Assembly: GCA_018240245.1 (NCBI GenBank)
Contig: JAFEGD010000007.1
Location: forward strand, 1 to 51,475
Source of the DNA: Spirochaetota bacterium
Lineage (GTDB): Bacteria; Spirochaetota; Leptospiria; Turneriellales; Turneriellaceae
DNA: 51,475 nt
Direction: 5' to 3'
Shown: in pieces, positions 25,896-40,376 of the stretch
Layout of the letters: every line of letters starts with the position of its first letter
Numbering within the stretch: the first letter of the stretch is position 1
Notes under the pieces: model-generated
Told to the model about the DNA's origin: nothing
Seen by the model: the letters and a program-made list of their open reading frames with translations, nothing else
The model's database searches: none
Position numbers and translations under genes: made by a program

Positions 25896-25909
25896 TTGAT
25901 ATACATCAA
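25896..25909. promoter_or_regulatory. FNR/DNR box before the NO reductase-like operon
   Basis: TTGATATACATCAA is a perfect match to TTGAT-N4-ATCAA. Its centre (25902.5) is 41.5 bp before a predicted transcription start at ~25944, with TATCAA (25931-25936) as a possible -10. This is the class II activator position. Confidence 0.82.
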
Positions 25910-25968: not shown

Positions 25969-26205
25969 ATGCAAGAAGCGCAGACATTTAATAAGACATT
26001 GGGCCAGAAGATTTTCGACAATATCTGGTTCTTATTGTTTATCGGCATGGCGTTTCCGGGAGTTTTCTATCTCGGATGGGGACTTATGGAGATTTTTGTC
26101 TTCAACAACACCAAGCTGACTGATTACTTGAAGAAGAGTAACCAAACCTATTTGATTCAGGTCGAGCAACCCAAGGCTGACTCGGCTACGAGTGGCAAAA
26201 AATAA
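25969..26205 (+). CDS. Small membrane protein, first gene of the oxidase operon
   Basis: 78 residues from ATG 25969 (MQEAQTFNKTL), with one membrane segment (FDNIWFLLFIGMAFPGVFYLGWG). A strong Shine-Dalgarno AAGGAGGGGG supports this start over the upstream frame start at 25909, which would lie inside the DNR box. It is 9 bp from the CuA subunit gene. It may be a small structural subunit of the oxidase complex. No family recognised. Confidence 0.7.
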   Translation: MQEAQTFNKTLGQKIFDNIWFLLFIGMAFPGVFYLGWGLMEIFVFNNTKLTDYLKKSNQTYLIQVEQPKADSATSGKK

Positions 26206-26214
26206 GGAGTAACT

Positions 26215-26814
26215 ATGCCTATAGAAACACCAAAAAAAAACTGGTGGGAGCCTTTTAATCGCGAAGAGAAAATTTGGCTCTATATCTCGATTGCTTGGGG
26301 TATCGTCATGTTCGTCATGATGCCGCTCGGGCACTTCTGGAACCAGAACGTTTCTTCGGAAACTTACAAGACAAAACCCGAAGAATACAGTCAGATTATC
26401 CAAAAGTTTATCGGCAAATACCAGCGCAAAGACGCCACGGGACAACTCGTGACGCATAACGGCAAACCCGGCGGAATCCCCGTTGTCGAAGCCCCGACGA
26501 AAGAACAAGGCGATGCGTTTCTTGTCGCACAGGCATGGCAATTTCGCCCCGCGTTAGTGCTCAAGAATAACAAGACATATCGCATTCACATGTCTTCGCT
26601 CGACTTTCAGCACGGCTTTTCGCTGCAACCGCAGAACCTGAACCTACAGATTTTGCCCGATTACAGCTTCGTCATCACTTTCAAGCCTAACGAGGTCTTC
26701 AAAGCGGGCGAAAAGAGTAAATCGTTCTATCTGGTGTGTAACGAGTACTGCATGTTTGCGAATAAGACCAGCGGCCACGACAGTATGGTCGGGCAAATCA
26801 TAGTGGAGGAATAA
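26215..26814 (+). CDS. Heme-copper oxidase subunit II with CuA site
   Basis: 199 residues with one N-terminal membrane anchor (IWLYISIAWGIVMFVMMPLGHF) and a cupredoxin domain. CuA ligands are visible: His in MSSLDFQHGFSLQ and C-N-E-Y-C...H-D-S-M in the segment LVCNEYCMFANKTSGHDSM. The usual spacing CxExCxxxHxxM is extended: eight residues, not three, lie between the second Cys and the His. The CuA centre takes electrons from a donor such as a cytochrome c or cupredoxin and passes them to subunit I. The gene ends 1 bp before the catalytic subunit starts. Confidence 0.88.
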   Translation: MPIETPKKNWWEPFNREEKIWLYISIAWGIVMFVMMPLGHFWNQNVSSETYKTKPEEYSQIIQKFIGKYQRKDATGQLVTHNGKPGGIPVVEAPTKEQGDAFLVAQAWQFRPALVLKNNKTYRIHMSSLDFQHGFSLQPQNLNLQILPDYSFVITFKPNEVFKAGEKSKSFYLVCNEYCMFANKTSGHDSMVGQIIVEE

Positions 26815-26815
26815 C

Positions 26816-28447
26816 ATGAGTTTAGCGAATATAACGAACCAGTTTAGAACCTGCCCGACAACCGGACTACACGTCCACCTGCCGGCGCAGCGACTCATCT
26901 GGGCAAACGCCGTTTCAGCGGTGGTCTTTCTTTTACTCGGCGGTGTGCTCGCGCTTCTGATTGCGCTAACACGCTGGCCTGCGGTACACTTGTTGCCGCA
27001 AGATTTATTCTACCGATTCATTACCGCGCACGGCATGACAATGCTCGTGTTCTGGATTGTGTTCTTCGAGATGGCGGGCGTCATTTTTGCCGCACAAACC
27101 ATCTTGGGCTCGCGCTTTCCGGCGATTAAGTTCGGTTGGTTTAACTATATCCTGATGATTACGGGCGCCGTCATGGCCGAGATAATTGTGTTCATGGGCA
27201 AGGCGGATGTCATGTTTACCGCATACCCTCCGCTCAAGGCGCATCCGCTTTTTTATCTGGGGATTATCCTCTTTGCTGTGGGGGCACTCCTCTATTGCTT
27301 TCAATTTCTCTATGCGTTGGTTATCGCCAAAAGAGAAGGATGGCATAAAGGTAGTCTACCGCTCTTCACGTTCGGTATCTTGGTTGCTGTCATCATTACA
27401 ATCTTTACCCTCGTGTCGGGCGCGGCGGCGTTTATCCCCGCGTTTATCTGGAGCTTAGGCGACATGGTGACAACACACCCGCAAGATATCCCGGGCATCC
27501 TCTTGCCTCTCACAAAATGGACGGCGAATTTGATTCCGACCGTCGACCCCGAATACTATCGCATTACGTTCTGGGGCTTCGGCCACTCGGCGCAACAGCT
27601 CAACCTCGCGGCGATGGTATCGATTTGGTATCTCTTGGCGCACTTGACGACAGGCGCAAAGCCGGTGAACCAAAAGATGTGCCGTTGGGCGTTTGTACTC
27701 TATCTTTTGGGCATTAACTTGGGTTCGATTCACCATAACCTCGTCGACCCCGGTCTTTCGTCGACGTATCGTATCTTTAATACGAGCTATCTGTTCTACG
27801 CCGCGACGATCGGTTCGATGATCCATGCGTTCTCGATTCCCGCTGCGGTTGAAACCGCACAACGTGCGAAAGGCTTTAGTAAAGGTCTTTTCCAATGGCT
27901 CGTCAAAGCGCCATGGGGAGAGCCCGGTTTTTCCGGTATGGCAATCTCGCTCGTGATTTTCGGTTTCTTCGGCGGTGTAACCGGAATCATTCTTTCGGTA
28001 GAGCAGCTCAACATGCTTTCGCATAATAACCTGCGCGTACCGGGGCATTTTCACATGACCGTTGTCGGCGGTACTTCGCTTGCGTTTATGGCTCTCACCT
28101 ATTATGTAATCCCCCTTGTGCTGCAACGCCAGCTCATCGGTAAAACCATCGCGAAATTTCAGCCGTACGTATTCGGTATCGGCCTCATGATGTTCACGAC
28201 GGGCATGCACTTTGCCGGTGTGATGGGCGCACCACGCCGCCATTGGGATGTGACGTTCAGCAACGCGGTGATTCAAGTGCCGTTCGACGCAGCGATGTAT
28301 TCGATGCTCGCTCTCGTGGGTATCGGTGCGATTGCGGCGTTCACGGGTCTATTGATGTTTATCTACGTTGCGGTGATGTCGGTATTCTTCGGTAAAAAAA
28401 TTCCGTCGAAGATCGAGCCTTATGCACCCGCATTCGCAAAAAATTAG
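26816..28447 (+). CDS. Heme-copper oxidase subunit I, probable non-classical nitric oxide reductase
   Basis: 543 residues, 12 or so membrane segments. Ligands: His72 (ITAHGMT) and His413 for low-spin heme, His411 for the active-site heme (VPGHFH), His257, His306 and His307 for CuB (FGHSAQQ; GSIHHNLVDPG). O2-reducing oxidases have HPEVY or HPVVY here with a cross-linked Tyr; this protein has H257-S-A-Q-Q261, so the Tyr is Gln. Classical NorB also lacks Tyr, but NorB has HxxxE. The pattern, the CuA subunit and the nirK/nnrS/DNR context together suggest an eNOR- or sNOR-like nitric oxide reductase, though an unusual O2 reductase is not excluded. Confidence 0.85.
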   Translation: MSLANITNQFRTCPTTGLHVHLPAQRLIWANAVSAVVFLLLGGVLALLIALTRWPAVHLLPQDLFYRFITAHGMTMLVFWIVFFEMAGVIFAAQTILGSRFPAIKFGWFNYILMITGAVMAEIIVFMGKADVMFTAYPPLKAHPLFYLGIILFAVGALLYCFQFLYALVIAKREGWHKGSLPLFTFGILVAVIITIFTLVSGAAAFIPAFIWSLGDMVTTHPQDIPGILLPLTKWTANLIPTVDPEYYRITFWGFGHSAQQLNLAAMVSIWYLLAHLTTGAKPVNQKMCRWAFVLYLLGINLGSIHHNLVDPGLSSTYRIFNTSYLFYAATIGSMIHAFSIPAAVETAQRAKGFSKGLFQWLVKAPWGEPGFSGMAISLVIFGFFGGVTGIILSVEQLNMLSHNNLRVPGHFHMTVVGGTSLAFMALTYYVIPLVLQRQLIGKTIAKFQPYVFGIGLMMFTTGMHFAGVMGAPRRHWDVTFSNAVIQVPFDAAMYSMLALVGIGAIAAFTGLLMFIYVAVMSVFFGKKIPSKIEPYAPAFAKN

Positions 28448-28453
28448 ATTATG

Positions 28454-28475
28454 TTTGGGGGGCTTTCCCCCCAAA
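28454..28475 (+). other. Intercistronic hairpin before the small oxidase subunit
   Basis: TTTGGGGGG (28454-28462) pairs with CCCCCCAAA (28467-28475) around CTTT. There is no T-run, so it is not an intrinsic terminator. It may protect or process the operon mRNA. Confidence 0.6.
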
Positions 28476-28495
28476 ACAAACAACAGGAGGAGATC

Positions 28496-28654
28496 ATGAG
28501 TAATAACAACAATCCTGGTTCTGCGCAGCAGAGCCAAAAAGAGAAAATGCACGCGCCGGGCAGCTTTGTGCTCGCGTTGATTTTTCTCGGCTGGTTTATG
28601 GTCGTCTATTTTACACAGTGGCTTGCGTTGAGCAAGAACTGGACTGTGTATTGA
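28496..28654 (+). CDS. Small single-span membrane subunit
   Basis: 52 residues from ATG 28496, with AGGAGGAG as Shine-Dalgarno. One membrane helix (GSFVLALIFLGWFMVVYFTQWLAL) and a hydrophilic N-terminus. Position right after subunit I is like that of the small subunit IIa of ba3-type oxidases, which completes the missing helix of a one-span subunit II. Role inferred from position. It is flanked by hairpins on both sides. Confidence 0.7.
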   Translation: MSNNNNPGSAQQSQKEKMHAPGSFVLALIFLGWFMVVYFTQWLALSKNWTVY

Positions 28655-28692: not shown

Positions 28693-30843
28693 ATGAAATT
28701 TCGAAACTCAATTTTTCAATACTTTTTATCCTTCTTTCAACGCGCCGATGCGGCCTTTAACCAAGTCTTCGGCGAAAAAGGAAATTTTCTCTATTACCTC
28801 GGTTCTTTACCGATTATTTTGCTTTTTGTGTTGCTCTTCACCGGGCTATTCATGTTCATTTATTACAATATGTCGGCGGGGCAGAGTTACGAATCGGTCA
28901 AGTACATGACCGAAAGCGCACTCTTCGGTCGCTTTGTTCGCAATTTACACCGCTATGCCGCCGACGCGATGATGTTCTTCGTCATCTTGCACATGGCGCG
29001 TATGCTCTTTGAAGAAAAGTTTCAAAACCACCGCGCGCTCGCGTGGGTGACAGGTCTCATCATATTGGCGCTGATGCTCGTGCAGGGTGTCACGGGCTAT
29101 ATCTTACCGCTCGACAGCAATGCGCGGTACGTGATGGAGAAAACGTCGGAGCTACTCGCAGGCCTCAAGGTCTTCGGCGATACGCTACCGCGCTCGTTTT
29201 CGTCGCCCGCCCTGCTCGGCAAATGGATCATGTGGGTGATAATGATTATCCACTTTGCAATTCCGCTATTTTTTATTGTACTTTTATTCTTGCACGTTCT
29301 GCGCGTATCGCGCGCGAAGATTTTTCCTCCGCGAAAAATTACGTATAGTTTTTTGGGGATGCTCGCGCTCTTCACGCTTATATTTCCGATTCAAATGGTC
29401 GGCAAAGCAGAGGCCGAAAAAGTCGCCGAGCTCGTGCAACCCGACTGGTTCTATTTGTTTTTTGCTGCGGTGTTCGATTCGCGGCACGGTTGGATTATTT
29501 GGAGTGCCATGGCGGCAACGTATCTCTTATTGCTTTTTCTCCCGAAAATTCTCAAGAAGCGCGAGATCTTGAAGGCGGTCGTCGATGCCGACAAGTGTAC
29601 GGGTTGCGGTCTCTGCGCCGTCGATTGCCCTTATGAGGCGATGACGATGATCGAGCGCAAAGACGAGTCGCGCTTCAAGCATCTTGTCGAAATCGACACG
29701 GCGCTTTGTGCGGGTTGCGGCGTCTGTTCGGGGTCGTGCAATTGGGATGCACTTACGTATCCCAACCCCGGTGCAGCCGAGAAAGAAATCGATTGGTCGC
29801 CAGCACAAGGTAAATGGGTGGCGCTCTTTTGCCAAGGGCGCGCGCATTCGCTGGGCATGCAAGCGGTGGCCGAACCGCTGCGCGAATTTGCTCCCGGCGC
29901 GGTTGCGCACGTCATGCCGTGTACGGGCAAGCTCGGCGCGAGTATGACAGAAAAAATTCGCGCGGGCGGGGCCAAGGGCATTGTCGTCGGTGCGTGCGCG
30001 AACGGCGACTGTTGGTACCGAGAGGGCAATAAATGGTTGCAAGAACGTATCGCGGCAAATCGTAAGCCGGTGTTTCGCAAGACGCCGCCGGAGTTTCCGC
30101 TGATCGGCGTCCGTTTTACTTCAGTGCAAAAAAAAGACGCACAAAAGGCAATCCTCGAAATTATCGAGAAGCAAACCCTGAATGGCAAGTCATTGCCGAC
30201 GCGCTTTTTTGCGATGCTGAAGCCTTCGACATGGGCGCATTCGTTCGCGATGAGTACGGTATTTTTTGCGCTCACGGTGTGGGTATTTTTCTTAGGCGCT
30301 TCGGGACGTTTTGGCGCGCTCAAGGCCGACAGCTCGCAGGCGATGTTGCGTCTCGACTTCTTTTATCAGACGCTCGAAGAAACGTGCTCGCCCGATAAAA
30401 TTCCACCGGGTGCCGAAAAAGCAGAGCTTGATCGTATCGCGGGGCTGATTAAGCTCGACCAACTCACGCCCGATGCGCGCGAAAATCTATTGAGGCAAGC
30501 GCGCGAAGGCGTTGCCGGTAAGTATTGTAGCCGCGCGCGCCGCTTGCTCGATATTATCGTCAAGGTCGACGGCAAAGAACTCGCACGACGCACGTTCAAT
30601 CCGTCGGGGTTGCACAACGACGGTATTACTTACGTGCTCATGAAAGAAGCGACGACACCGGGCCAGCATGCGATTGCGGTCGAGGCGCACGAGAAAGATT
30701 CGGCGTCGCACGGACGCAGCGTAGTTTTCAGCGAAACGCTATCGTTTGCGGGCGGCGAAGTGAAGTTGCTCGACTATAACCCGAATACGGCGAAGTTCTA
30801 TTGGCGCACGACTATCGATAGCACAGCAGGGGGGTCAAAATGA
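28693..30843 (+). CDS. Cytochrome b / 2x[4Fe-4S] ferredoxin / MvhD-like fusion protein
   Basis: 716 residues in four parts. 1-290: cytochrome b6-like membrane domain with heme pairs H86/H100 and H187/H201 and motif GVTGYILPLDSNA. ~300-355: two ferredoxin motifs, CTGCGLCAVDC (from 302) and CAGCGVCSGSC (from 339). ~370-485: MvhD/hydrogenase Fe-S subunit-like domain with cysteines C380, C410, C435 and C440 (ALFCQGRAHSLGM, HVMPCTGKLG, VGACANGDCWYREGN). ~505-716: one membrane span and a periplasmic beta-rich tail. It could carry electrons from quinol or a cytoplasmic donor to the oxidase, or the reverse. No bifurcating flavin domain is present. The gene is directly downstream of the oxidase and overlaps the next gene (ATGA). 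Confidence 0.85.
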   Translation: MKFRNSIFQYFLSFFQRADAAFNQVFGEKGNFLYYLGSLPIILLFVLLFTGLFMFIYYNMSAGQSYESVKYMTESALFGRFVRNLHRYAADAMMFFVILHMARMLFEEKFQNHRALAWVTGLIILALMLVQGVTGYILPLDSNARYVMEKTSELLAGLKVFGDTLPRSFSSPALLGKWIMWVIMIIHFAIPLFFIVLLFLHVLRVSRAKIFPPRKITYSFLGMLALFTLIFPIQMVGKAEAEKVAELVQPDWFYLFFAAVFDSRHGWIIWSAMAATYLLLLFLPKILKKREILKAVVDADKCTGCGLCAVDCPYEAMTMIERKDESRFKHLVEIDTALCAGCGVCSGSCNWDALTYPNPGAAEKEIDWSPAQGKWVALFCQGRAHSLGMQAVAEPLREFAPGAVAHVMPCTGKLGASMTEKIRAGGAKGIVVGACANGDCWYREGNKWLQERIAANRKPVFRKTPPEFPLIGVRFTSVQKKDAQKAILEIIEKQTLNGKSLPTRFFAMLKPSTWAHSFAMSTVFFALTVWVFFLGASGRFGALKADSSQAMLRLDFFYQTLEETCSPDKIPPGAEKAELDRIAGLIKLDQLTPDARENLLRQAREGVAGKYCSRARRLLDIIVKVDGKELARRTFNPSGLHNDGITYVLMKEATTPGQHAIAVEAHEKDSASHGRSVVFSETLSFAGGEVKLLDYNPNTAKFYWRTTIDSTAGGSK

Positions 30844-31517
30844 GATGTCGCGCAAGAATCTCGCTGATCGTCTTTTCAGCTCTCTACGTAACGTGCGCAC
30901 CGCCGAGCGAGAAGGCATACGAAAAAAGTTTTGCACTGCGCGCGGCGCGCGAACTCGATAGCATCGGCGACGACGAAACCGCTTTGTATTATCTTTTGCG
31001 CGCGAAAGGCGAAGCGGCGGCAAAAGTCGAAGCCGAGAATTTCTTGCGACTACTCGCCGAGCGCAAGACGCGCGCGAGCGGCTGCATCGAAGATAAGAAA
31101 GCCGATCTCGCAATTAACCAATACCCGCGCATTCGACACAAGCACCTTTTTCAAATGGGGTTGTGCCTCGAAGCGTTGGGCGACACGAAGCGCGCACTCA
31201 ATTTTTATAATTTATCCGAGACGGCGAGCTCGAAGCAACCGCAACTTTTTATTCGCCGCGCGTTACTCGAAGAACGATTAGGCGATAATACGGCGGCAGC
31301 GCGCGACTTCGCGCGAGCGCTCGCACTGAATCCGCAGTACCCGCCCGCGTTGCTCTCGCAAATTTTATTTCACTTAAGGCGAGGCAATAGCGCCGACGCC
31401 GAGGCGTTGTTAAAACCGCTCGCAGAAACGAAGGCGACGTACGCAGAGATTGCAAACGATGTGCGCGTACACCGCGCCGAAGTTGTTGCAATATGGGGTA
31501 AGACACATGGCAAATAA
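30840..31517 (+). CDS. TPR-like lipoprotein in the oxidase operon
   Basis: 225 residues with a lipoprotein signal (LYVTC, Cys19). The mature part has helix pairs of TPR type: KHLFQMGLCLEALGDTKRALNFYNLS, RRALLEERLGDNTAAARDFARALALNPQYPPAL (in parts: LLEERLGDNTAAARDFA, LALNPQYPPAL). Such proteins usually act as assembly scaffolds. It overlaps the preceding gene by 4 bp and the following SCO gene by 11 bp, so it is translated with them and may help assemble the complex. Confidence 0.72.
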   Translation: MRCRARISLIVFSALYVTCAPPSEKAYEKSFALRAARELDSIGDDETALYYLLRAKGEAAAKVEAENFLRLLAERKTRASGCIEDKKADLAINQYPRIRHKHLFQMGLCLEALGDTKRALNFYNLSETASSKQPQLFIRRALLEERLGDNTAAARDFARALALNPQYPPALLSQILFHLRRGNSADAEALLKPLAETKATYAEIANDVRVHRAEVVAIWGKTHGK

Positions 31518-32133
31518 TAAAAAGCGGCTGTGGTTTTTGCGCGGTATTGCCATTCTGCTCATGCTCGCATCGGGCTATATCGCGTGGTATACAATCGCGA
31601 AAGGTACGCCGCGCGATTTTTGGCAAGATCACCTCAATCGCAAACGCGGCAATCTACAGAATATCGCTGGCACGTTTACCGACCAAGACGGCAAACAAGT
31701 GACGCTCAAGAATTTTGCCGATAAAAACATTATCGCGACGTTCGTTTTCAAAGATTGTAATATGTCGTGCCCGATTATCATGAACGATTTGCGACTCTTT
31801 GAAAAAAATGCGCCCGACTTTGCGCGCTCGGGAAATTTTTTGATCTTCACTTTTGAAGACCACCGCAAAAACCCCGAAGAGTTGCGCGAATTCTTGAAAA
31901 AATATCGTATCGAGGGCGATCATTGGCGCGTTTTGACAGCCGACGCGGCGACAATACGCAAGTTGGCCGACACGTTCGAATTGCAGTATAATAAAGGCGA
32001 GGCGGGCAATTATATTTATGCGCACAGCAACGTTTTCATCGTCGCCGACAAGAACGGCGTCGTGCGTCGCGAGTTTCGCGGTATCGAGAACAATAAGGCG
32101 AAATTTTTCGAAGAGGTGAGAAAATTTTTGTGA
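31507..32133 (+). CDS. SCO1/SenC family copper chaperone
   Basis: 208 residues. N-terminal membrane anchor (FLRGIAILLMLASGYIAW), then the SCO thioredoxin fold with the copper motif C84-N-M-S-C88-P and His173 in YAHSNVFIV. SCO proteins deliver copper to CuA sites; the CuA subunit is in the same operon. The frame is open from 31450, but ATG 31507 gives the membrane anchor directly and is chosen. Confidence 0.9.
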   Translation: MANNKKRLWFLRGIAILLMLASGYIAWYTIAKGTPRDFWQDHLNRKRGNLQNIAGTFTDQDGKQVTLKNFADKNIIATFVFKDCNMSCPIIMNDLRLFEKNAPDFARSGNFLIFTFEDHRKNPEELREFLKKYRIEGDHWRVLTADAATIRKLADTFELQYNKGEAGNYIYAHSNVFIVADKNGVVRREFRGIENNKAKFFEEVRKFL

Positions 32134-32462
32134 TTAAGCAGTATAAGGGCACATTTCTTTTTTTGCTGTTGGGGTTGTGGGGGCTTTCTGCGGCGAACGG
32201 CGTCAAAGATTTTTGGTTCGAGATGCGCGCAAAGTCGACCGGCGAGATCATCAGCTATGCCTCGCTGCAAGAATTTTGCGGCTGGACGGGCGATAAGAAA
32301 ATCGGCGAAACCGATTTCGAATATGCGCTGCGCCGTGTGCGCAATATGTTCTCGGCGATTATGGCGATGAGTTTTTTATCGGTACTCTTGTTTGGAGCTA
32401 TCTTCGGTTCGATATTCGGCGTCTTTTATTGGGCTGGCGCATTTAAGGATGAAGAAATATGA
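32130..32462 (+). CDS. Hypothetical membrane protein
   Basis: 110 residues from GTG 32130, overlapping the SCO stop (GTGA). Two membrane segments: FLFLLLGLWGLSAANGV and MAMSFLSVLLFGAIFGSIFGVFYW, with a loop of about 50 residues between them. No family recognised. Its position between the SCO gene and the c-heme protein gene, with 4 bp overlaps on both sides, suggests a part in assembly or electron transfer. Confidence 0.65.
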   Translation: MIKQYKGTFLFLLLGLWGLSAANGVKDFWFEMRAKSTGEIISYASLQEFCGWTGDKKIGETDFEYALRRVRNMFSAIMAMSFLSVLLFGAIFGSIFGVFYWAGAFKDEEI

Positions 32463-33226
32463 GAATTTCCACGCGAATTTGGATAGCCGTTTCGGCGATT
32501 TTAACGATTGCGTCGCTCGCGATTAAATTCTATTTTTTGCCGGCGGTCGAGCGCTTCAATCGTCTCACCGTCGAAGAACAGATGCAGCGCGAAATGCTCG
32601 CATTTGAAAAAGTCTTGGCGGTCGTCGCCACCGCCGCCGACAAAAATATGGATTTTGTGCGCCGCTCGTTTCGCGCGATTAGCGAAGAAAAAGGCATTCA
32701 CGTCGAGTTGCGGCGCGACAAAATTCTCGACGAACAATTCGGCAAGAAAGACGATTATGCGCAGAACGATTTCGAACGCGAGGCGTTGCGTTCGCGCAAG
32801 CCGGCTTTTCGCGAGCACGACGGCAATATCGAATACGTCTATCCGCTGAAGGCGCAGAAACTCTGCCAGTCGTGCCACGTGACAGCAGAACACAAGCCGG
32901 TCGCGCTAGGGCAGCCGTTGGGGCTTGCGGTACGTAAACTACCGCTCTCGATATTCACCGATTCTCCGATCAGCTATTTTACGCTCGATTTATTTTGGCA
33001 AAATTTTGCGCTCCTCGCTTTCTGTATGATTGCGTTAATCGTACCGGTATGGTTTTGGATATTGCGCCCCTTACAGCGGCTTGCCGATAAAAGCGACGCG
33101 ATTGTACACCGCCGCGACATGGCAAACGAAGAAGACAAGGTGTCGTTGATTTCCGAAACGGAACAAATGCCCGAAGAATGGCGTTCTATCCGAAGGATTA
33201 TCGACGATGCACACGACAAACACTGA
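32459..33226 (+). CDS. Membrane c-type heme protein, sensor-like
   Basis: 255 residues: N-terminal membrane segment (IWIAVSAILTIASLAIKFYF), ~130-residue periplasmic domain with a c-heme motif C136-Q-S-C139-H140, second membrane segment (LLAFCMIALIVPVWFWIL) followed by a HAMP-like stretch (LRPLQRLADKSDAI). The layout resembles Tll0287/DUF3365-type heme sensors lacking an output domain. It may sense NO/redox state or pass electrons. It overlaps the heme A synthase gene by 20 bp. Confidence 0.75.
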   Translation: MRISTRIWIAVSAILTIASLAIKFYFLPAVERFNRLTVEEQMQREMLAFEKVLAVVATAADKNMDFVRRSFRAISEEKGIHVELRRDKILDEQFGKKDDYAQNDFEREALRSRKPAFREHDGNIEYVYPLKAQKLCQSCHVTAEHKPVALGQPLGLAVRKLPLSIFTDSPISYFTLDLFWQNFALLAFCMIALIVPVWFWILRPLQRLADKSDAIVHRRDMANEEDKVSLISETEQMPEEWRSIRRIIDDAHDKH

Positions 33227-34226
33227 TTCGCAAAAACCCGTTCGCTATTGGCTCTACGCATGCGCGGCGATTGTGTTTGCGATCGTCGTCATCGGCGGCA
33301 TCACGCGCCTCACGCGCTCGGGTCTTTCGATCACCGAATGGAAACCCGTGAGCGGCGTTGTGCCGCCCTTGACCGCAGCGCATTGGCAGAGCGAATTCGA
33401 TAAATATAAAGCCACGCCCGAATATCATCATGTCAACCGCGGCATGAGTCTCGACGAGTTCAAGAATATCTATTGGTGGGAGTTCATCCACCGCATCTTC
33501 GCTCGGCTTGTCGGCGTTGTCTTTCTCATCCCTTTTCTGTGGTTTTTATACAGAAGGCAAATTAGCCGAGCATTAGGCGCGCGACTCGCGTTCGTGTTTC
33601 TCTTAGGCGGCTTTCAAGGTTTTCTCGGTTGGTACATGGTGAAAAGCGGGCTCGTCAACGACCCGCACGTGAGTCACTTACGCCTCATGAGTCATCTCAT
33701 GACCGCGGTCTTGATCTATGCGCTGATTCTCATGACCGCGTGGGGGCTAAAGACCGAATCGCGCGAACGCCAACATAGTTTTGGCGCTGCGGCCATGGTC
33801 GCGTTCGCGTTTCTGATTCTCGCGAGCGGCGCACTCGTCGCGGGTCTTAAAGCGGGCAAAATGTACAACACGTTTCCGCTCATGAACGGCGCATATTTTC
33901 CACCGGGCACCGAGTGGCTTAGCCCGAGTTATACGAATTTCTATAATAACCCCGGTGTGGTGCAGTTCGAACATCGCAATCTTGCGTACGCATTCGGATT
34001 GCTTATGGCGGTGTTGGTTTGGCGCGAGCGCAAAAATCTATCGATCAGACATCCGCTCGCTCTTGTGATTGTCGCATACTTATTACAAGTACTTCTCGGA
34101 GTATTCACACTCTTGCATGCCGTACCCGTGTCGCTGGGGGCGCTCCACCAAACGAACGCTTTGATTCTCTTTACGACGGCGCTATGGTATTGGGCGGCGA
34201 AACGCTATGCGCTCTGCGCTTTTTAG
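33207..34226 (+). CDS. ctaA: Heme A synthase (COX15/CtaA family)
   Basis: 339 residues, eight membrane segments. The family signatures are present: GGITRLTRSGLSITEWKPVSG, WWEFIHRIFARLVG (H95), MSHLMTA (H163), FEHRNLAYAFG and LHQTNAL. It hydroxylates heme O to heme A, so the nearby oxidase probably carries A-type heme. No CtaB (heme O synthase) is seen in the window. It is the last gene of the operon; the stop codon lies inside the hairpin terminator. Confidence 0.92.
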   Translation: MHTTNTDSQKPVRYWLYACAAIVFAIVVIGGITRLTRSGLSITEWKPVSGVVPPLTAAHWQSEFDKYKATPEYHHVNRGMSLDEFKNIYWWEFIHRIFARLVGVVFLIPFLWFLYRRQISRALGARLAFVFLLGGFQGFLGWYMVKSGLVNDPHVSHLRLMSHLMTAVLIYALILMTAWGLKTESRERQHSFGAAAMVAFAFLILASGALVAGLKAGKMYNTFPLMNGAYFPPGTEWLSPSYTNFYNNPGVVQFEHRNLAYAFGLLMAVLVWRERKNLSIRHPLALVIVAYLLQVLLGVFTLLHAVPVSLGALHQTNALILFTTALWYWAAKRYALCAF

Positions 34227-34258: not shown

Positions 34259-34870
34259 CTAACTTTTCAAAAAATGTGTTTTGCCGTCGCTCTGTAAAAC
34301 GCCCTTTTGCACCAATTGGTTCCAAATGCGACTCACCGATTCGGGTGTGAGGTCGAGCAGCGCCGCGAGTTGATTTTTCGGAATATCGAGCGCGATTGGC
34401 GCTTTATCGGCGCCGAGCGATTTGAGGTAAGCGATAATGCGCCCCTCGGCGTTTTTGAGTGTCAAGGTCTCGATTTTATCTTTGAGCTTCGGAATCAGGC
34501 GCACGCTTGTATTTACAAAGTAATTATGAATTACTTCGTCGCTCGCAATGAGCTTTTTCAAGCGATCGTATTCGAATGCGACTAAGCAACCGTCCGCGAG
34601 CGAATTACACGAAGCCGGATAATTGCCACCCAGAAAAAGCGGTCCGCTGGCCATCATTTCTTGCTCGCGAAAAATATGGATAATCGATTCTTTGCCTTCG
34701 TCGCCGGTCATGAAAATTTTGAATTGGCCTTCGGCGACAAAATACGGACCGGCATAACGATCGCCCTCGCGAAACACAGCCTCGCCGCGAGCAAAGCGTT
34801 TATAGTGTGCAAGCGCGCGTAGCTTTTCGGCGTCGGCTCGCGAGAGCTCACTGAATTCAATAGAGGTCAT
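34259..34870 (-). CDS. Crp/Fnr family regulator, DNR/NNR-like
   Basis: 203 residues: cNMP-type sensor fold (residues ~15-110), long dimer helix, and winged HTH with E177-S-V-S180-R181, the ExxSR pattern that reads TTGAT half-sites in FNR and DNR proteins. FNR's N-terminal cysteine cluster is missing (only C88 and C95 are present), so it does not sense O2 by a [4Fe-4S] cluster; DNR/NNR proteins sense NO through heme. The gene is next to three matching boxes (25896, 34935, 38320) and I infer it controls them. Confidence 0.88.
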   Translation of the reverse strand: MTSIEFSELSRADAEKLRALAHYKRFARGEAVFREGDRYAGPYFVAEGQFKIFMTGDEGKESIIHIFREQEMMASGPLFLGGNYPASCNSLADGCLVAFEYDRLKKLIASDEVIHNYFVNTSVRLIPKLKDKIETLTLKNAEGRIIAYLKSLGADKAPIALDIPKNQLAALLDLTPESVSRIWNQLVQKGVLQSDGKTHFLKS

Positions 34871-34934: not shown

Positions 34935-34948
34935 TTGACTTTTATCAA
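34935..34948. promoter_or_regulatory. FNR/DNR box upstream of nirK
   Basis: TTGACTTTTATCAA fits TTGAY-N4-ATCAA with one base off the perfect palindrome. It lies between the divergent regulator and nirK. The centre (34941.5) is 105 bp before the nirK ATG; a -10 at the expected spacing is weak (TACTGG at 34971), with TAAACT at 34977 as an alternative. No fitting -10 was found toward the regulator. Confidence 0.75.
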
Positions 34949-35046
34949 GGACGAAGATCAAAAAAGGGTGTACTGGTAAACTAATCTAAGGTAGTTATGC
35001 TGCTCGGCAATATTACACCTTAGGGTACATGATTCATGGAGGATAT

Positions 35047-36462
35047 ATGAAATCCCAAAATAAGCGCTCCGTAGGTATCGCCATCGCGCTGGTCGGCATA
35101 ATGCTCGTACCCGCAACAATCGCTTGCGGCAAAAAGACCGAAAAGGCCGTGCTTGCGCATGCGCCGAATGTGCCGCCGCAACTCAACCGCAGCGGCAACG
35201 CGAAAGTGATTATCGAACTCGAAACAAAAGAGCTTAAAGGTCGCCTCGCCGACGGCGTAGAATATACGTTCTGGACCTTCGGCGGCACCGTGCCCGGCCC
35301 GATGATGCGCGTGCGCGAAGGCGACGACGTCGAGTTTAAACTCTCGAACCACCCCACGAGCAAGATGCCGCATAACATCGACTTACACGCGGTCACCGGC
35401 CCCGGCGGTGGCGCAGCGGCGTCGCTCACCTCGCCCGGCCACAGTTCGACGTTTTCGTTCAAGGCGTTAAACCCGGGTCTCTTTATTTATCATTGCGCCA
35501 CTGCGCCGGTCGGTATGCACATCGGCAACGGCATGTACGGTCTCATCTTAGTCGAACCCAAAGGCGGATTACCCTCTGTGGACAAAGAGTTCTACCTATT
35601 ACAGTCTGAGTTTTATACCAGCGGCAAAAATGGGCAGGCGGGTTTGCAAGCATTCGACATGAACAAAGCACTCGACGAAAAGCCCGAATACGTCGTCTTT
35701 AACGGCTCGGTGGGGGCTTTGATCGGCGACAAGACGCTCAAGACAAAAGTCGGCGACAAAGTGCGTTTTTTCGTCGGTAACGCTGGCCCGAATCTTGTTT
35801 CGTCTTTTCACGTGATCGGTGAAATTTTCGATAACGTTTACAGCGAAGGCGGCAGCGAGCGTAACCAGAAAAACGTGCAGACAACGTTGATACCGGCAGG
35901 CGGTGCGGCGATTGTCGAGTTCAAAATGGAAGTCCCTGGTAGTCACGTGATTGTCGACCACTCGATTTTTCGCGCGTTCAACAAAGGCGCCTTGGGGCTG
36001 ATCGTTGCCGAAGGCGAACCGAATCTTGCGGTCTATTCGGGCAAACAACTCGATACCGTTTACTTGCCCGAAGGGGGGGCGACGCAGACAATCCCTGCCG
36101 ATCAAGCGCAGAAGCAAATGCCCAAGACAAAAGAAGAGCGGCTTGTTGCCGGCAAACGAATTTTTGCGAGCGTCTGTCAGGCTTGCCACATGAGCGAAGG
36201 CCAAGGTGTACCGCAGGCTTTTCCGCCGCTCGCGCAGTCTGATTTCTTGAATGCCGATAAGAATCGTGCAATCAAGATCGTTCTCGACGGTAAGTCCGGC
36301 CCCATCACCGTAAACGGGAAAAAGTTTGATAGTGTGATGCCGGCCTTAGGCTTAAGCGACGACGATGTCGCGAGCGTACTCACGTTTGTCTTAAATTCGT
36401 GGGGTAACAAAGGCGGCGAAGTGACGCTCGCCGAAGTTGCTTCGCAAAGGAGCGGGCACTAG
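35047..36462 (+). CDS. nirK: Copper nitrite reductase fused to cytochrome c, lipoprotein
   Basis: 471 residues from ATG 35047 (GGAGG upstream). Lipoprotein signal with Cys27 (ATIAC). Two cupredoxin domains: type 1 copper ligands H109, C150, H158, M163; type 2 copper ligands H114, H149, H305; catalytic D112 and H255. After ~365 comes a cytochrome c domain with C377-Q-A-C380-H381. It reduces nitrite to NO in the periplasm; the cytochrome domain probably supplies electrons directly. It is followed by a strong hairpin and a NirV-like gene. Preceded by a DNR box. Confidence 0.95.
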
Positions 36463-36466
36463 TATG

Positions 36467-36511
36467 ACAAATCAGCATGTTAGCTTCGCTAACATGCTGA
36501 TTTGTTTTTTG
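36467..36511 (+). terminator. Strong hairpin after nirK, inside the next coding frame
   Basis: Arms ACAAATCAGCATGTTAGC (36467-36484) and its exact reverse complement (36488-36505) around TTC, then T-rich TTTTTTG. It is a textbook intrinsic terminator for nirK, yet it overlaps the start region of the nirV-like gene. Confidence 0.88.
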
Positions 36512-37216
36512 TTCGTAAGCCAAGTCGACGCCGTCGATGTAATAACTATTACCGGCGGCAGGTTTCGGCCGTTTGATCTCAAAAAAGACCAAAAGGCCGT
36601 TTCTATAAAAAAATTTCAAATCGACAAATACCCTGTGACTGTCGGCGAGTTTGCCCAATTTCTCGCAGCAAAACCCGAATGGCAGAAAGTCAATGTCCCC
36701 ACGATCAAGGCCGACCCAGGCTATTTGCAATCCACCCGCATGGCTTCGGGCGACACGAAGACCGTCATGACGCAGGTGTCGTGGTATGCCGCGCGCGCGT
36801 ACTGCGCGTACCAAAAAAAGCGGCTGCCGACGCTCTACGAATGGGAATACGTCGCGACGTATAATAAATGGGATACGCGCCCCGACACGAATCAAAAAAT
36901 TCTTGCGTGGTTTTCGCGTCCGAACGTGCAGGGTGCGAGCGGCGATATCGGTTCGGGGCTTGCGAGTCCGCAGGGCGTGCGCGATTTGCACGGCCTAATA
37001 TGGGAGTGGGTCGACGATTTCAATTCTTCAACTGTCACCGGCGATGCGCGCGCAGACACGAATAGCGAGTCGAATTTATTTTGCGGGGCGGCTTCGCTTG
37101 CGGGGAGCGATCTCAGAAACTATGCGACATACATGCGCTATGGCATGCGCAGTTCGTTAAAAGGAAATTACACCGGTCACAACTTAGGCTTCCGGTGTGC
37201 CAAGGATACCCAATGA
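36494..37216 (+). CDS. nirV: NirV-like SUMF1/FGE-fold protein
   Basis: About 240 residues. SUMF1 features: FQIDKYPVTVGEFAQFLAA, VSWYAARAYCAYQKKRLPTLYEWEYVA (in parts: WYAARAYCAYQKKRLPT, LYEWEYVA), GVRDLHGLIWEWVDDF, NLGFRCAKD. The catalytic cysteine pair of true formylglycine-generating enzymes is not visible: the matching stretch reads NYATYMRYGMRSS. NirV proteins of this fold follow nirK in several denitrifiers. I favour ATG 36494, which gives a signal peptide (MLICFLFVSQVDA) starting in the right arm of the hairpin; ATG 36464 is an alternative. It is coupled to the next gene (ATGA). Confidence 0.78.
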   Translation: MLICFLFVSQVDAVDVITITGGRFRPFDLKKDQKAVSIKKFQIDKYPVTVGEFAQFLAAKPEWQKVNVPTIKADPGYLQSTRMASGDTKTVMTQVSWYAARAYCAYQKKRLPTLYEWEYVATYNKWDTRPDTNQKILAWFSRPNVQGASGDIGSGLASPQGVRDLHGLIWEWVDDFNSSTVTGDARADTNSESNLFCGAASLAGSDLRNYATYMRYGMRSSLKGNYTGHNLGFRCAKDTQ

Positions 37217-37809
37217 AAAAAGGGAAAATGCTACTGATTGCCGTTGCTTGCGCAACGGTAATCAGTAGCTGTAAGAGAGAAGATCCGCATGCGCATCATG
37301 AGATGCAAAATGCGCAAGCATCTGTGCCTTCTGGAGCGTCGCTCTACCAGTTTCACGACATGTTCACCGACCAAAACGGCAAACAGTGGATGCTGCACCA
37401 ATTCGAAGGTAAGTATGTCGTCGTGGCGATGTTCTATGCGACGTGTACCGCAATCTGCCCGCGCATCGCCGCCGAAATGCTTCGACTTGAAAAAACATTG
37501 TCGAGTAGCCAGCGCGCGAAAACGCATTTCGTGATGATCTCGTTCGACCATGAGCGCGATAATCCGGCGCAACTGCAAAAATTTATAAAGAAGATGAAGC
37601 TCACCGAATCGTTCACGCTCCTCACCGGCAAGCCCGATTCGATTCGCGAAGTTGCCGCCGCGTTGGGGATTAACTATAAGAAGCTCGACGACGGCGAGTA
37701 TGCGCACTCGTCGCTCTTTACGCTGCTTTCGCCGACGGGTGAAATTGCCGCACAGCACGCGGGACTAAGCTTAAAAGCGGACACATTTATTGACAAGATT
37801 GAAAAATAA
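37213..37809 (+). CDS. Second SCO1/SenC copper chaperone, lipoprotein
   Basis: 198 residues. Lipoprotein signal (ATVISSC, Cys20), His-rich linker (DPHAHHEM), then the SCO fold with C78-T-A-I-C82-P and His165 (YAHSSLFTLL). Start ATG 37213 overlaps the NirV stop (ATGA). It is likely to serve copper to NirK or CuA. A long hairpin (37231-37268) lies inside its signal-peptide codons. Confidence 0.9.
   Translation: MKKGKMLLIAVACATVISSCKREDPHAHHEMQNAQASVPSGASLYQFHDMFTDQNGKQWMLHQFEGKYVVVAMFYATCTAICPRIAAEMLRLEKTLSSSQRAKTHFVMISFDHERDNPAQLQKFIKKMKLTESFTLLTGKPDSIREVAAALGINYKKLDDGEYAHSSLFTLLSPTGEIAAQHAGLSLKADTFIDKIEK
37231..37268 (+). other. Hairpin inside the signal-peptide coding region of the second SCO gene
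   Basis: CTACTGATTGCCGTTGC (37231-37247) and GCAACGGTAATCAGTAG (37252-37268) form a 17-pair stem with one G-U pair and a TTGC loop. It lies over codons 7-19. Confidence 0.75.
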
Positions 37810-37906
37810 GTTTATGCTGTGTCGCCGCGAGAAAAAGAGGTTTTTATCCGCTTTATGCAGGGCACCACTTTGATGCCGATGCAGAGCGTAAGCGGTGGAG
37901 GCGAAT

Positions 37907-38314
37907 ATGAAGCGACTCGAATGGAATGTACAGTACAGCGTCGGCGTACCCAAGATCGACCAACAGCACGCTTACCTCTTTGAACTTGCGAATCGGCTCG
38001 CTAAAAACGCCGGGGTCGACAATCGTTGGGGCGAGCTTGGCGATATCATCGCCGAGTTACATAAATATGTCGATACGCATTTTACCTATGAAGAAGAGAT
38101 TATGGCGCAGGCGCACTACGACGAACTTGAAAAGCACAAGAAGATGCACGATTTAATGCGCACGCGGCTCGACCTCTTGACTGCGCAGCTTAAACAGGGT
38201 TTACTCAATCGCAGCGAACTCATCGAGTTTCTCGAAGAATGGCTCACGATTCATATCTTGCGCGAAGACATGAAATATATTCCCGCTGTTGCGCAGTTGT
38301 CGTCGTCTGTCTAA
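37907..38314 (+). CDS. Bacteriohemerythrin 1
   Basis: 135 residues from ATG 37907 (GGAGG upstream). Di-iron ligands are present: DQQHAYLF, HFTYEEEIM, HKKMH, HILRED. Hemerythrins bind O2 and some bind or reduce NO. Here it stands between the nirK/SCO genes and nnrS, separated from the latter by a DNR promoter. It is one of three in this region. Confidence 0.92.
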   Translation: MKRLEWNVQYSVGVPKIDQQHAYLFELANRLAKNAGVDNRWGELGDIIAELHKYVDTHFTYEEEIMAQAHYDELEKHKKMHDLMRTRLDLLTAQLKQGLLNRSELIEFLEEWLTIHILREDMKYIPAVAQLSSSV

Positions 38315-38319
38315 AATAA

Positions 38320-38361
38320 TTGATTTTTATCAAGGGCGATTTTCTTGCGCGTATGTATACT
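38320..38361 (+). promoter_or_regulatory. DNR/FNR class II promoter of nnrS
   Basis: TTGATTTTTATCAA (38320-38333) is a perfect box. The -10 TATACT is at 38356-38361, and the box centre (38326.5) is exactly 41.5 bp before a start at 38368. The layout matches a class II FNR-type promoter. Confidence 0.82.
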
Positions 38362-38367
38362 GTGAGC

Positions 38368-39546
38368 GTGAATAAACTTGCATTTTTTTCAACGGCTTTT
38401 CGCGTTTTCTTTTTTGCGTGCGCTCTGCACGCCGTCGCGGCGGTGACGCTCTGGTTACTCAAACTTTCGGGCGTCGCGATTGCGGGTACCGAACAAATCA
38501 CAACGTATTGGCATACGTATGAAATGCTTTTCGGCTTCGTGCGTGCGGCCATCTACGGCTTTATTTTTACCGCCGGTCAACATTGGACCGGGCGTTTTCT
38601 CTTGGGGGGATGGTCGGCGGTACTGCTTTCGGCTTTCTGGCTCATTGGTCGCACCGCGTTTTTTTTCGCGGGCGTGACGCATCATATTGTTTTACTCATC
38701 GATTTTGCCGGTAGCCTCTACGCGCTCTATCGACTCTCGCCGCTTATCTCGACCAAGCAAACGCAGAACCGACAAATTTTTTCTCTCGTTGCCTTTTTTT
38801 CGGCAATGCAAGGTGTACTCGCGATTTTTTTCTGGGTTTCGATTCCCGAAAGTTATTACCTTCCCATCGCGAGGATTGCTCTACTGTCTGCGGTCTTGAT
38901 CGTGGCGATGATTGCCGGCCGCATCTTGCCATTCTTCGCGGGCAACGTGATTCAAGGTAAGAAACCGCGCATCTTGCCGAGGGTCGAGAATTTGATATGG
39001 CCGGCGACGCTCGCGGCTTTGGTTGCATACGCCGCACAAATTTTTTTGTCGCAACTTGCGATCGGCGCGGCGGTTGTGTTTCTTTTCGTTGCGGCGTTGC
39101 ACCTCGCGCGCTGGGCTTTATGGCGTCCCTGGGCGAGCGTTCGCTTTCCGATTCTTGCAATATTATTTTCGGGATATTTTTGGTTGGCGTTGTCGTTTGC
39201 ATTTCAAGCCGCCGCGTTGTCGGGTATTATGCCTACAGTACCGACTGCATCCTCACCCGCTTGGCACATGGCCGGCATCGGTGCTTGCGGTGTGTTCATC
39301 TATGGCATGATTACGCGCGTTGCGTTGGGGCACACAGGCCGCGCGATCAAAGCCGCACCGCTCGTTAGCGTCGCGTATGTGCTCTTGAACTTTGCGGTGA
39401 TTGCTCGCGTCTTCTTGCCTTACATAACGAATCTTACACGCACGTACGAGGTTGCCGCCGGTCTTTGGATAAGCGCGTTTGCCATCTATCTTGCGCATTA
39501 TGCACACGTTTTAATTCTACCGCGCGCGGACGGCCGACCCGGTTAA
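38368..39546 (+). CDS. nnrS: NnrS-family heme/copper membrane protein
   Basis: About 392 residues with 12 membrane segments. NnrS signatures: AFFSTAFRVFFFACALHAV, YWHTYEMLFGFVRAAIYGFIFTAGQHWTG (in parts: YWHTYEMLFGFVRAAI, TAGQHWTGR), AGRILPFFAGN, WHMAGIGACGVFIYGMITRVALGHTGR (in parts: WHMAGIGACG, RVALGHTGR). NnrS proteins protect cells from NO-linked stress, and their genes lie in NNR/DNR regulons. Start: ATG 38353 lies upstream of the -10 end, so GTG 38368, at the predicted transcription start, is preferred and would be leaderless. Confidence 0.85.
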   Translation: MNKLAFFSTAFRVFFFACALHAVAAVTLWLLKLSGVAIAGTEQITTYWHTYEMLFGFVRAAIYGFIFTAGQHWTGRFLLGGWSAVLLSAFWLIGRTAFFFAGVTHHIVLLIDFAGSLYALYRLSPLISTKQTQNRQIFSLVAFFSAMQGVLAIFFWVSIPESYYLPIARIALLSAVLIVAMIAGRILPFFAGNVIQGKKPRILPRVENLIWPATLAALVAYAAQIFLSQLAIGAAVVFLFVAALHLARWALWRPWASVRFPILAILFSGYFWLALSFAFQAAALSGIMPTVPTASSPAWHMAGIGACGVFIYGMITRVALGHTGRAIKAAPLVSVAYVLLNFAVIARVFLPYITNLTRTYEVAAGLWISAFAIYLAHYAHVLILPRADGRPG

Positions 39547-39555
39547 AGGGGGAGC

Positions 39556-39957
39556 ATGGAGCATTACGATTGGAAAGACGCTTATAATACCGGCATTCGC
39601 GAGTTAGATTCGCAACACGAATATTTATTTGCACTGACAAATCGATTGCTGCGGCAACGTGAAAACCCGAATAGAGCGCATGTCAAAGGAATTTTAGACG
39701 AGCTCTATGAATATACAGAACAACACTTTGCTTACGAAGAATCGCTGATGGAGCAATCGCTTTACGACGATTTACTCGATCATAAAAAATTACATATCCG
39801 ACTCAAAGAACGTTTGTCGCTATATAGTGTTGAAGTCGCGAAAGGCAAGTTGAGCGTCGACGATCTATGCGAATTTATGAAGATTTGGTTGATTAACCAT
39901 ATTTTGCGACAAGACTTTCACTTTGCCGAACAAGTCAAAAATAAAAAGGATACCTAG
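39556..39957 (+). CDS. Bacteriohemerythrin 2
   Basis: 133 residues with GGGGG-AG upstream of ATG. Ligands in SQHEYLF, HFAYEESLM, HKKLH and HILRQDFHF. It follows nnrS after 9 bp and overlaps the next hemerythrin gene by 1 bp, so it is part of the NnrS unit. It probably scavenges NO or O2. Confidence 0.9.
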   Translation: MEHYDWKDAYNTGIRELDSQHEYLFALTNRLLRQRENPNRAHVKGILDELYEYTEQHFAYEESLMEQSLYDDLLDHKKLHIRLKERLSLYSVEVAKGKLSVDDLCEFMKIWLINHILRQDFHFAEQVKNKKDT

Positions 39958-40376
39958 TGATCGATTTTGAATGGCGCGACGAATACTCGGTCGGTGTTGC
40001 AGCGATTGACCACCAACACCAATCGCTATTTGCGTTGGCGCGTCGTGCAGTCGCGCTCGGCGACGACGCTACAAATGAAGTAGAACTACTCAATCTAGTG
40101 CAAGAAATGGAAGACTACGCAAATCGCCATTTTGCGCTCGAAGAGAAACTCATGCGCGAAGCGAGTTATAGCGAGTACGACGATCATAAGAAAATGCACG
40201 ATTTCATGCGCGTGCGTTTAGAACTTGTCTCGAAGCAGCTGAAGAAACACGAATTAACCAAACACGATCTTGTCGAATTTCTCGAGAGTTGGCTCACAGA
40301 GCACATAATAATGGAAGACTTGCGCTATATCCCCGTCATGAAGACAAACTTTAAGAGAAAAAATACCGATGGATAA
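39957..40376 (+). CDS. Bacteriohemerythrin 3
   Basis: 139 residues from GTG 39957. Ligands in DHQHQSLF, HFALEEKLM, HKKMH and HIIMED. It overlaps hemerythrin 2 by 1 bp and the HDOD gene by 8 bp. It is closest in sequence to hemerythrin 1 (shared HKKMHDxMRxRL, VEFLExWLTxHI), which points to local duplication. Confidence 0.9.
   Translation: MIDFEWRDEYSVGVAAIDHQHQSLFALARRAVALGDDATNEVELLNLVQEMEDYANRHFALEEKLMREASYSEYDDHKKMHDFMRVRLELVSKQLKKHELTKHDLVEFLESWLTEHIIMEDLRYIPVMKTNFKRKNTDG

Follow-up and report, generated by a model that had tools for sequence, protein, structure and literature searches.

Which reaction is catalysed by a haem-copper oxidase that lacks the cross-linked tyrosine of the oxygen reductases and is encoded next to a CuA subunit? 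The question is raised by a gene pair in the window, that is, the whole 51,475-nucleotide stretch analysed here (contig JAFEGD010000007.1 of the Spirochaetota assembly GCA_018240245.1, family Turneriellaceae):

26215-26814, + strand: putative eNOR subunit II (199 aa), a CuA cupredoxin with a lengthened ligand loop, C175-x3-C179-x8-H188-x2-M191
26816-28447, + strand: putative eNOR subunit I (543 aa), the haem-copper catalytic subunit, with Gln261 at the place of the cross-linked Tyr

A preliminary description of this DNA had proposed a non-classical nitric oxide reductase (NOR), most like eNOR, an enzyme that converts nitric oxide into nitrous oxide, a greenhouse gas. With a probability of about 0.87, the subunit I/II complex is predicted from its sequence to be an eNOR, the B-type-related haem-copper NO reductase of a denitrifying Turneriella-like bacterium (Leptospirales). 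The eNOR family is already established; the core finding is a member of this known family, made a variant by a clade-specific CuA loop.

Subunit I carries a glutamine in place of the active-site tyrosine

Subunit I belongs to the COX1 family (206 bits in the Pfam/NCBIfam search). Its best PDB relatives in a phmmer search were the ba3 oxidases of T. thermophilus (E about 1e-38), followed by much weaker matches to A-type enzymes (8e-9 or worse), with no C-type oxidase among the PDB matches. Direct reading of the residues confirmed the six metal-binding histidines listed in the preliminary description (H72, H257, H306, H307, H411, and H413), together with Q260 and Q261. In the phmmer alignment to ba3, H257 corresponds to the helix VI histidine that binds CuB and Q261 to the cross-linked Tyr237, in agreement with the replacement proposed earlier. 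The residues Q260, Q261, N263, Y272, Y296, H306, H307, S334, and H337 were invariant in 90 distinct relatives of subunit I, whereas seven Tyr-bearing B-type oxidases aligned to it displayed V/Y/W at positions 260/261/263 and a threonine at position 337. The B-type ba3 oxidase of T. thermophilus (PDB ID: 1ehk) thus shares with the window enzyme its fold, its metal ligands, the serine and tyrosine of the K-path and the CuA fold, but Tyr237, V236, W239, and T312 are replaced by Gln261, Q260, N263, and H337, respectively.

The residue found at this site is Gln in eNOR, Asn in sNOR, Asp in gNOR, Glu in cNOR and qNOR, and Tyr in oxygen reductases (PMC8756737, Table A4), and the definition of eNOR rests on this Gln together with a single predicted proton channel (PMC8756737). 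Subunit I harbors the eNOR residue, Q261, rather than the helix VI tyrosine of B-type oxygen reductases or the aspartate of gNOR. The sNOR and bNOR (CuANOR) enzymes are also non-classical NORs with CuA, but they carry an asparagine where subunit I has Gln261. With cNOR and qNOR, which have a glutamate at the site and no CuA, the window enzyme shares the proposed reaction; it differs from them by its CuA, by a clade separate from qNOR, and by the absence of the NorB-type glutamate, as the preliminary description had stated. The tyrosine of C-type oxygen reductases, located on helix VII, is also missing: six residues ahead of the HH pair, where the cbb3 oxidase of the same genome has a tyrosine, all members carry an invariant isoleucine (Ile300). 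The preliminary description had named placement in an O2-reducing branch with a tyrosine displaced elsewhere in the active site as evidence that would count against it; a displaced tyrosine of the C-type kind was rejected.

Regarding proton transfer, S309 and Y248 of the ba3 K-path are kept as S334 and Y272, while T312 is replaced by the invariant H337. Glu18 (E18) of subunit II, invariant in the subunit II alignment, is presumably the counterpart of the ba3 entrance Glu15. At the level of residues, S334, Y272, H337, and E18 of subunit II would fit the single conserved K-type channel expected of an eNOR.

Two in-frame insertions were observed that occur in no relative, same genus included: one of ~22 aa in the loop that precedes helix VI of subunit I (about residues 216-238; 27461-27530) and one of 7 aa in subunit II (about residues 160-170; 26690-26725). 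Both are probably located on the periplasmic side.

Phylogenetic placement of the enzyme

A GTDB scan combining signature patterns such as [AS]QQ[IL]N with alignment yielded 508 relatives, the best 80 of which were kept. The Gln enzymes all fell in one clade (SH-aLRT 99) of a 70-row tree whose outgroups were A-, B-, and C-type enzymes and qNOR. A more careful tree of 39 rows, with the long-branch Azospirillum and Asn-type haem-copper oxidase (HCO) rows left out, placed the H-x3-Q clade as sister to the Tyr-bearing B-type oxidases with a bootstrap/SH-aLRT support of 100/99. Members of this clade are subunit I, Ardenticatenaceae, a Rhodothermales MAG, Thermomicrobium roseum, and the T. thermophilus plasmid copy located near nirS. 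The tree, a check suggested by the preliminary description, excludes subunit I from the O2-reducing branches and groups it, close to the B family, with lineages from which eNOR has been reported. The R. marinus eNOR lies outside this comparison, so that the link to eNOR runs through the diagnostic Gln and the named relatives; the Gln and the 100/99 clade support the earlier eNOR-like assignment. Within the genus, the copy of Turneriella sp. Bin_83R is 81% identical and those of other genomes reach up to 90%, which suggests that the window comes from a Turneriella-like member of Leptospirales.

The R. marinus enzyme is reportedly the one eNOR that has been purified, and the family is said to be the subject of Hemp & Gennis 2008 and Murali et al. 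2024. Biochemically characterised NOR families include eNOR (PMC11388526), which has been reported in Thermus (PMC8756737) and shares an operon with nirK in Ardenticatena (PMC4653789). No report of an eNOR in Leptospirales was found in the literature searched, the reach of which did not extend to Murali 2024. On plasmid pTF24b of T. thermophilus (L109), the Gln-type enzyme is labelled ba3 oxidase and lies a few genes from nirS, the two probably forming a transferable denitrification island.

The window complex resembles the eNOR family by its Gln at the Tyr position, six metal histidines, CuA subunit II, B-type kinship, single K-type path, and nirK linkage. It departs from the family by the CuA loop of its clade, which is five residues longer, and by the window-only insertions in both subunits.

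A lengthened CuA loop in subunit II

As expected for an eNOR, a CuA cupredoxin subunit adjoins subunit I. All the CuA ligands (H133, C175, E177, C179, H188, and M191) were identified by direct reading, which bears out the preliminary description; the latter was silent on the spacing between the second cysteine and the histidine, which is 8 instead of 3. Despite the lack of a Pfam call for a CuA domain in this protein, similarity to CuA was detected by phmmer and by a fold search, the best PDB fold matches of the AF2 model being ba3 CuA domains. The mean pLDDT of this model is 84.7, a value that falls to about 61 in the block containing the loop.

The loop, CNEYC-MFANKTSG-HDSM, follows a C-x3-C-x8-H-x2-M pattern, five residues longer than the usual C-x3-C-x3-H-x2-M. 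Across the loci compared, which provided 116 distinct CuA motifs, the spacing was 3 in 109 and 8 in 7, with none between. The seven long motifs all belong to the clade of the window, which unites the Turneriella group with two other lineages of the class, and the next relatives outside this clade have a normal loop. An assembly error is excluded by the recurrence of the insertion in genomes that were sequenced independently. The length of the ligand loop tunes the reorganisation energy of engineered copper sites on a CuA scaffold (PMC7480511), which makes it plausible, by analogy, that the longer loop alters electron transfer. It could also change or abolish the usual CuA site.

Gene neighbourhood and predicted co-expression

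The gene pair lies within an operon that is followed by further genes linked to denitrification:

25969-26205, + strand: small protein of 78 aa with a single TM helix, read from the ATG that follows a strong Shine-Dalgarno, first gene of the putative eNOR operon
28693-30843, + strand: cytochrome b with 2x[4Fe-4S] ferredoxin and an FlpD/MvhD-like domain (716 aa, Pfam/NCBIfam), next gene after subunit I
30840-31517, + strand: TPR protein, probably a lipoprotein (Pfam/NCBIfam)
31450-32133, + strand: SCO1/SenC copper-delivery protein, true start probably 31507 (Pfam/NCBIfam)
32130-32462, + strand: membrane protein of 110 aa that is conserved across the clade of the window
32459-33226, + strand: membrane protein with a weak Tll0287-like domain (Pfam, below cut-off) and one CxxCH haem c motif, conserved in the clade
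33207-34226, + strand: CtaA/Cox15 haem A synthase (Pfam/NCBIfam)
34259-34870, - strand: Crp/FNR-family regulator, DNR-like candidate (Pfam/NCBIfam)
35029-36462, + strand: NirK, copper nitrite reductase with a C-terminal cytochrome c, true start probably 35048 (TIGR02376 over cut-off, Cytochrom_C)
38320-39546, + strand: NnrS, its true start lying downstream of the box at about 38352 (PF05940, E=1e-74)

The small TM protein has no Pfam match. About half of the GTDB loci have a relative at the same place, ~700 bp ahead of subunit I, and a short ORF is also found upstream in Thermus and Thermomicrobium; the protein would be a probable subunit IIa-like third subunit. CtaA had been cited as favoring an eNOR-like enzyme. 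The gene is indeed present, but it is the only copy in the available genome and the caa3 oxidase encoded elsewhere needs it too, so that it is not eNOR-specific evidence.

The linkage to nirK and nnrS, in contrast, was confirmed by the Pfam/NCBIfam search, which also identified an FGE-like protein, a second SCO, and hemerythrins in this region. The nirK gene, the FGE/sulfatase-modifying-factor-like gene, and SCO stand together at 35029-37809, and the same trio is linked in four loci of other phyla (L079, L083, L095, and L098). Three hemerythrin-like proteins (37895-38314, 39556-39957, and 39957-40376) flank nnrS and are probably part of the NO response.

In at least 14 eNOR loci from several phyla, we also observed a nearby HCO paralogue of 450-500 aa that keeps the GGGH-x-LQ and SHYH haem ligands and has lost the CuB HH pair (L041:12299-13759, L046:16759-18231, L038:10695-12083(-), L042:5999-7420, L047:3192-4667, L063:2321-3691, L083:7903-9288, L087:7889-9271, L099:3849-5234, and others). 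This paralogue, a candidate CuB-less partner of eNOR, is absent from the window genome.

A pattern search located three perfect FNR/DNR-type boxes in the window:

25896-25909, + strand: box TTGATATACATCAA, 60 bp upstream of the small single-TM gene that opens the putative eNOR operon
34935-34948, + strand: box before nirK
38320-38333, + strand: box before nnrS

The DNR box of the preliminary description is thus real and is one of three matches to TTGAY-N4-RTCAA, when 0.26 would be expected in the window; none of 100 shuffles reached three. The whole genome contains 13 such sites, and the presence of 3/13 in the window has a P of about 0.001. The eNOR operon, nirK, and nnrS would probably share their expression through these boxes.

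A recurrent cytochrome b/[4Fe-4S]/FlpD neighbour

The most interesting lead of the analysis is the protein encoded directly after subunit I. It comprises a cytochrome b of six TM helices, two [4Fe-4S] motifs, an FlpD/MvhD-like domain with four cysteines (C380, C410, C435, and C440), a seventh TM helix (518-536), and a C-terminal beta domain. The haem ligands of a bis-haem cytochrome b (His 86, 100, 187, and 201) are invariant in 43 relatives, and the membrane part of the AF2 model (pTM 0.86) matches the fold of complex III cytochrome b. Fold and haem ligands thus recall complex III, and the order of ferredoxin then FlpD is that of HdrA2 among the HdrA2/MvhD FeS modules; unlike these systems, the window protein fuses the parts in one 716-aa chain. 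We found no single solved structure covering the whole architecture. A cytochrome c domain was looked for on longer homologues and not found, and genes for a Rieske protein or cytochrome c1 are missing from the eNOR operon. The cytochrome b does have a Qo-type PDWF motif, which at first pointed to quinol oxidation; being confined to the Turneriella group, it was rejected as proof.

The distribution of this fusion was determined in 296 genomes of the phylum, 16 of which have a close eNOR relative. Cytochrome b joined to the FeS part was present in 16/16 of these genomes, counting two drafts (G115 and G199) in which it is cut by contig ends, versus 1/280 of the others (hypergeometric P about 1.5e-25, shared ancestry ignored). 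The single exception is a fragmented draft of the same genus in which no eNOR was detected; the remaining matches were partial cytochrome b or ferredoxin. In all 16 genomes, the eNOR contig itself carries at least a piece of the fusion. Adjacency extends to many phyla, since the fusion stands beside eNOR in 25 of the 30 GTDB loci with long enough flanks and is missing from the other five. In a literature search that did not cover the main eNOR paper, a cytochrome b/FlpD fusion with a NOR appeared only in PMC8756737, in another context.

Based on this association, the cytochrome b/FeS/FlpD protein is the leading candidate for an electron-transfer partner dedicated to eNOR, and probably is one, with an inferred direction and donor. 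A broader and rather doubtful proposal is that many eNORs might belong to a dedicated respiratory module, in which this protein, with its [4Fe-4S] and FlpD/MvhD domains in the cytoplasm, would connect CuA directly with the quinone pool or with a low-potential donor of the cytoplasm, accompanied by a re-shaped CuA loop in the Turneriella clade.

Denitrification genes in the rest of the genome

The genome, a 93%-complete draft, encodes four HCOs: a caa3, a cbb3, the eNOR of the window, and an Asn-type enzyme with CuA. None of the four is a cNOR or qNOR. The Asn-type enzyme (L004, G000:C154:24746-26020), a second Tyr-less HCO with the motif GHTLVN, carries an asparagine in the Tyr position and is accompanied by a CuA subunit and an SCO of its own. 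Its residue would make it sNOR- or bNOR-like, although its family is unsure given its long branch; it is clearly distinct from the window eNOR. The genome also encodes a clade II NosZ and a single Rieske protein, and two of its contigs carry fragments of NrfD. Neither Nar nor Nap was detected in the genome, nor any match to the molybdopterin Fe4S4 family, which implies that the substrate chain would start at nitrite. The operon, the boxes, nirK, nnrS, and nosZ fit with denitrification, and the other HCOs (caa3, cbb3, and Asn-type) could share in NO reduction.

Proposed mechanism and alternative readings

In the mechanism that we propose, electrons would enter at CuA of subunit II, probably supplied by the cytochrome b/[4Fe-4S]/FlpD fusion as dedicated partner, and would reach, by way of the low-spin haem (H72/H413), the centre formed by the high-spin haem (H411) and CuB (H257, H306, H307). 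There, two NO would be converted into N2O and water, with Gln261 taking the place of the cross-linked Tyr required for O2 reduction. Protons would probably be delivered along the single K-type path formed by E18 of subunit II, S334, H337, and Y272. The enzyme would probably be co-expressed with nirK and nnrS through the FNR/DNR boxes.

A B-type oxidase reducing mainly O2, or both O2 and NO, without a cross-linked tyrosine would share the conserved metal ligands and the kinship to ba3 oxygen reductases, the closest solved structures; the invariance of two other tyrosines (Y272 and Y296) and the annotation of relatives as cytochrome oxidases in public records also point that way. We consider it very unlikely, since the active-site tyrosine is missing in 90/90 members, the C-type position is I300, the locus is linked to nirK, nnrS, and FNR/DNR boxes, and the Gln family is treated as NO reductases (PMC8756737, PMC11388526). 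If the substrate is NO, its reduction might protect the cell from NO released by NirK instead of conserving energy by respiration. NnrS and its three hemerythrin-like neighbours, often tied to NO stress, and the lack of a detected nitrate reductase agree with such a role, but it appears rather unlikely: the CuA input, the K-path residues, and the linked cytochrome b, complex III-like and carrying FeS domains, fit respiration, as does NosZ, which fits a nitrite-to-N2 respiratory chain.

The route of electrons into this eNOR leaves room for two further readings. The five-residue insertion might create a different copper site in this clade, for example mononuclear or low-potential, with an electron entry unlike that of other eNORs. 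The spacing of 8 in 7/7 clade members and 0/109 other motifs, the drop of AF2 confidence to 61, and the shift of reorganisation energy with loop length in engineered CuA-scaffold sites (PMC7480511) would accommodate this idea, which we hold to be improbable given that the six CuA ligands are all conserved and that the inserted residues could simply bulge out. The cytochrome b/FeS/FlpD gene, for its part, may be a mere neighbour with an unrelated role, as the five well-covered loci without it and the same-genus draft that has the fusion and no detected eNOR would allow. This remains a doubtful though serious possibility against the co-occurrence in 16/16 versus 1/280 genomes and the adjacency across phyla, and we retain the fusion as the probable partner.

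Implications

The lengthened CuA loop can be viewed as an experiment of nature: in the other 109 motifs compared, the loop spacing of this metal site never varies. As public records label eNOR relatives as cytochrome oxidases, organisms that carry them are scored as unable to reduce NO, and a nitrite-to-N2 route composed of NirK, eNOR, and clade II NosZ would be missed in Leptospirales by routine annotation. Where eNOR obtains its electrons can be tested directly through the recurrent cytochrome b/FeS/FlpD neighbour. If the dedicated module proved true, NO reduction would be wired unlike in any characterised NOR, possibly from cytoplasmic carriers to the periplasmic reduction of NO.
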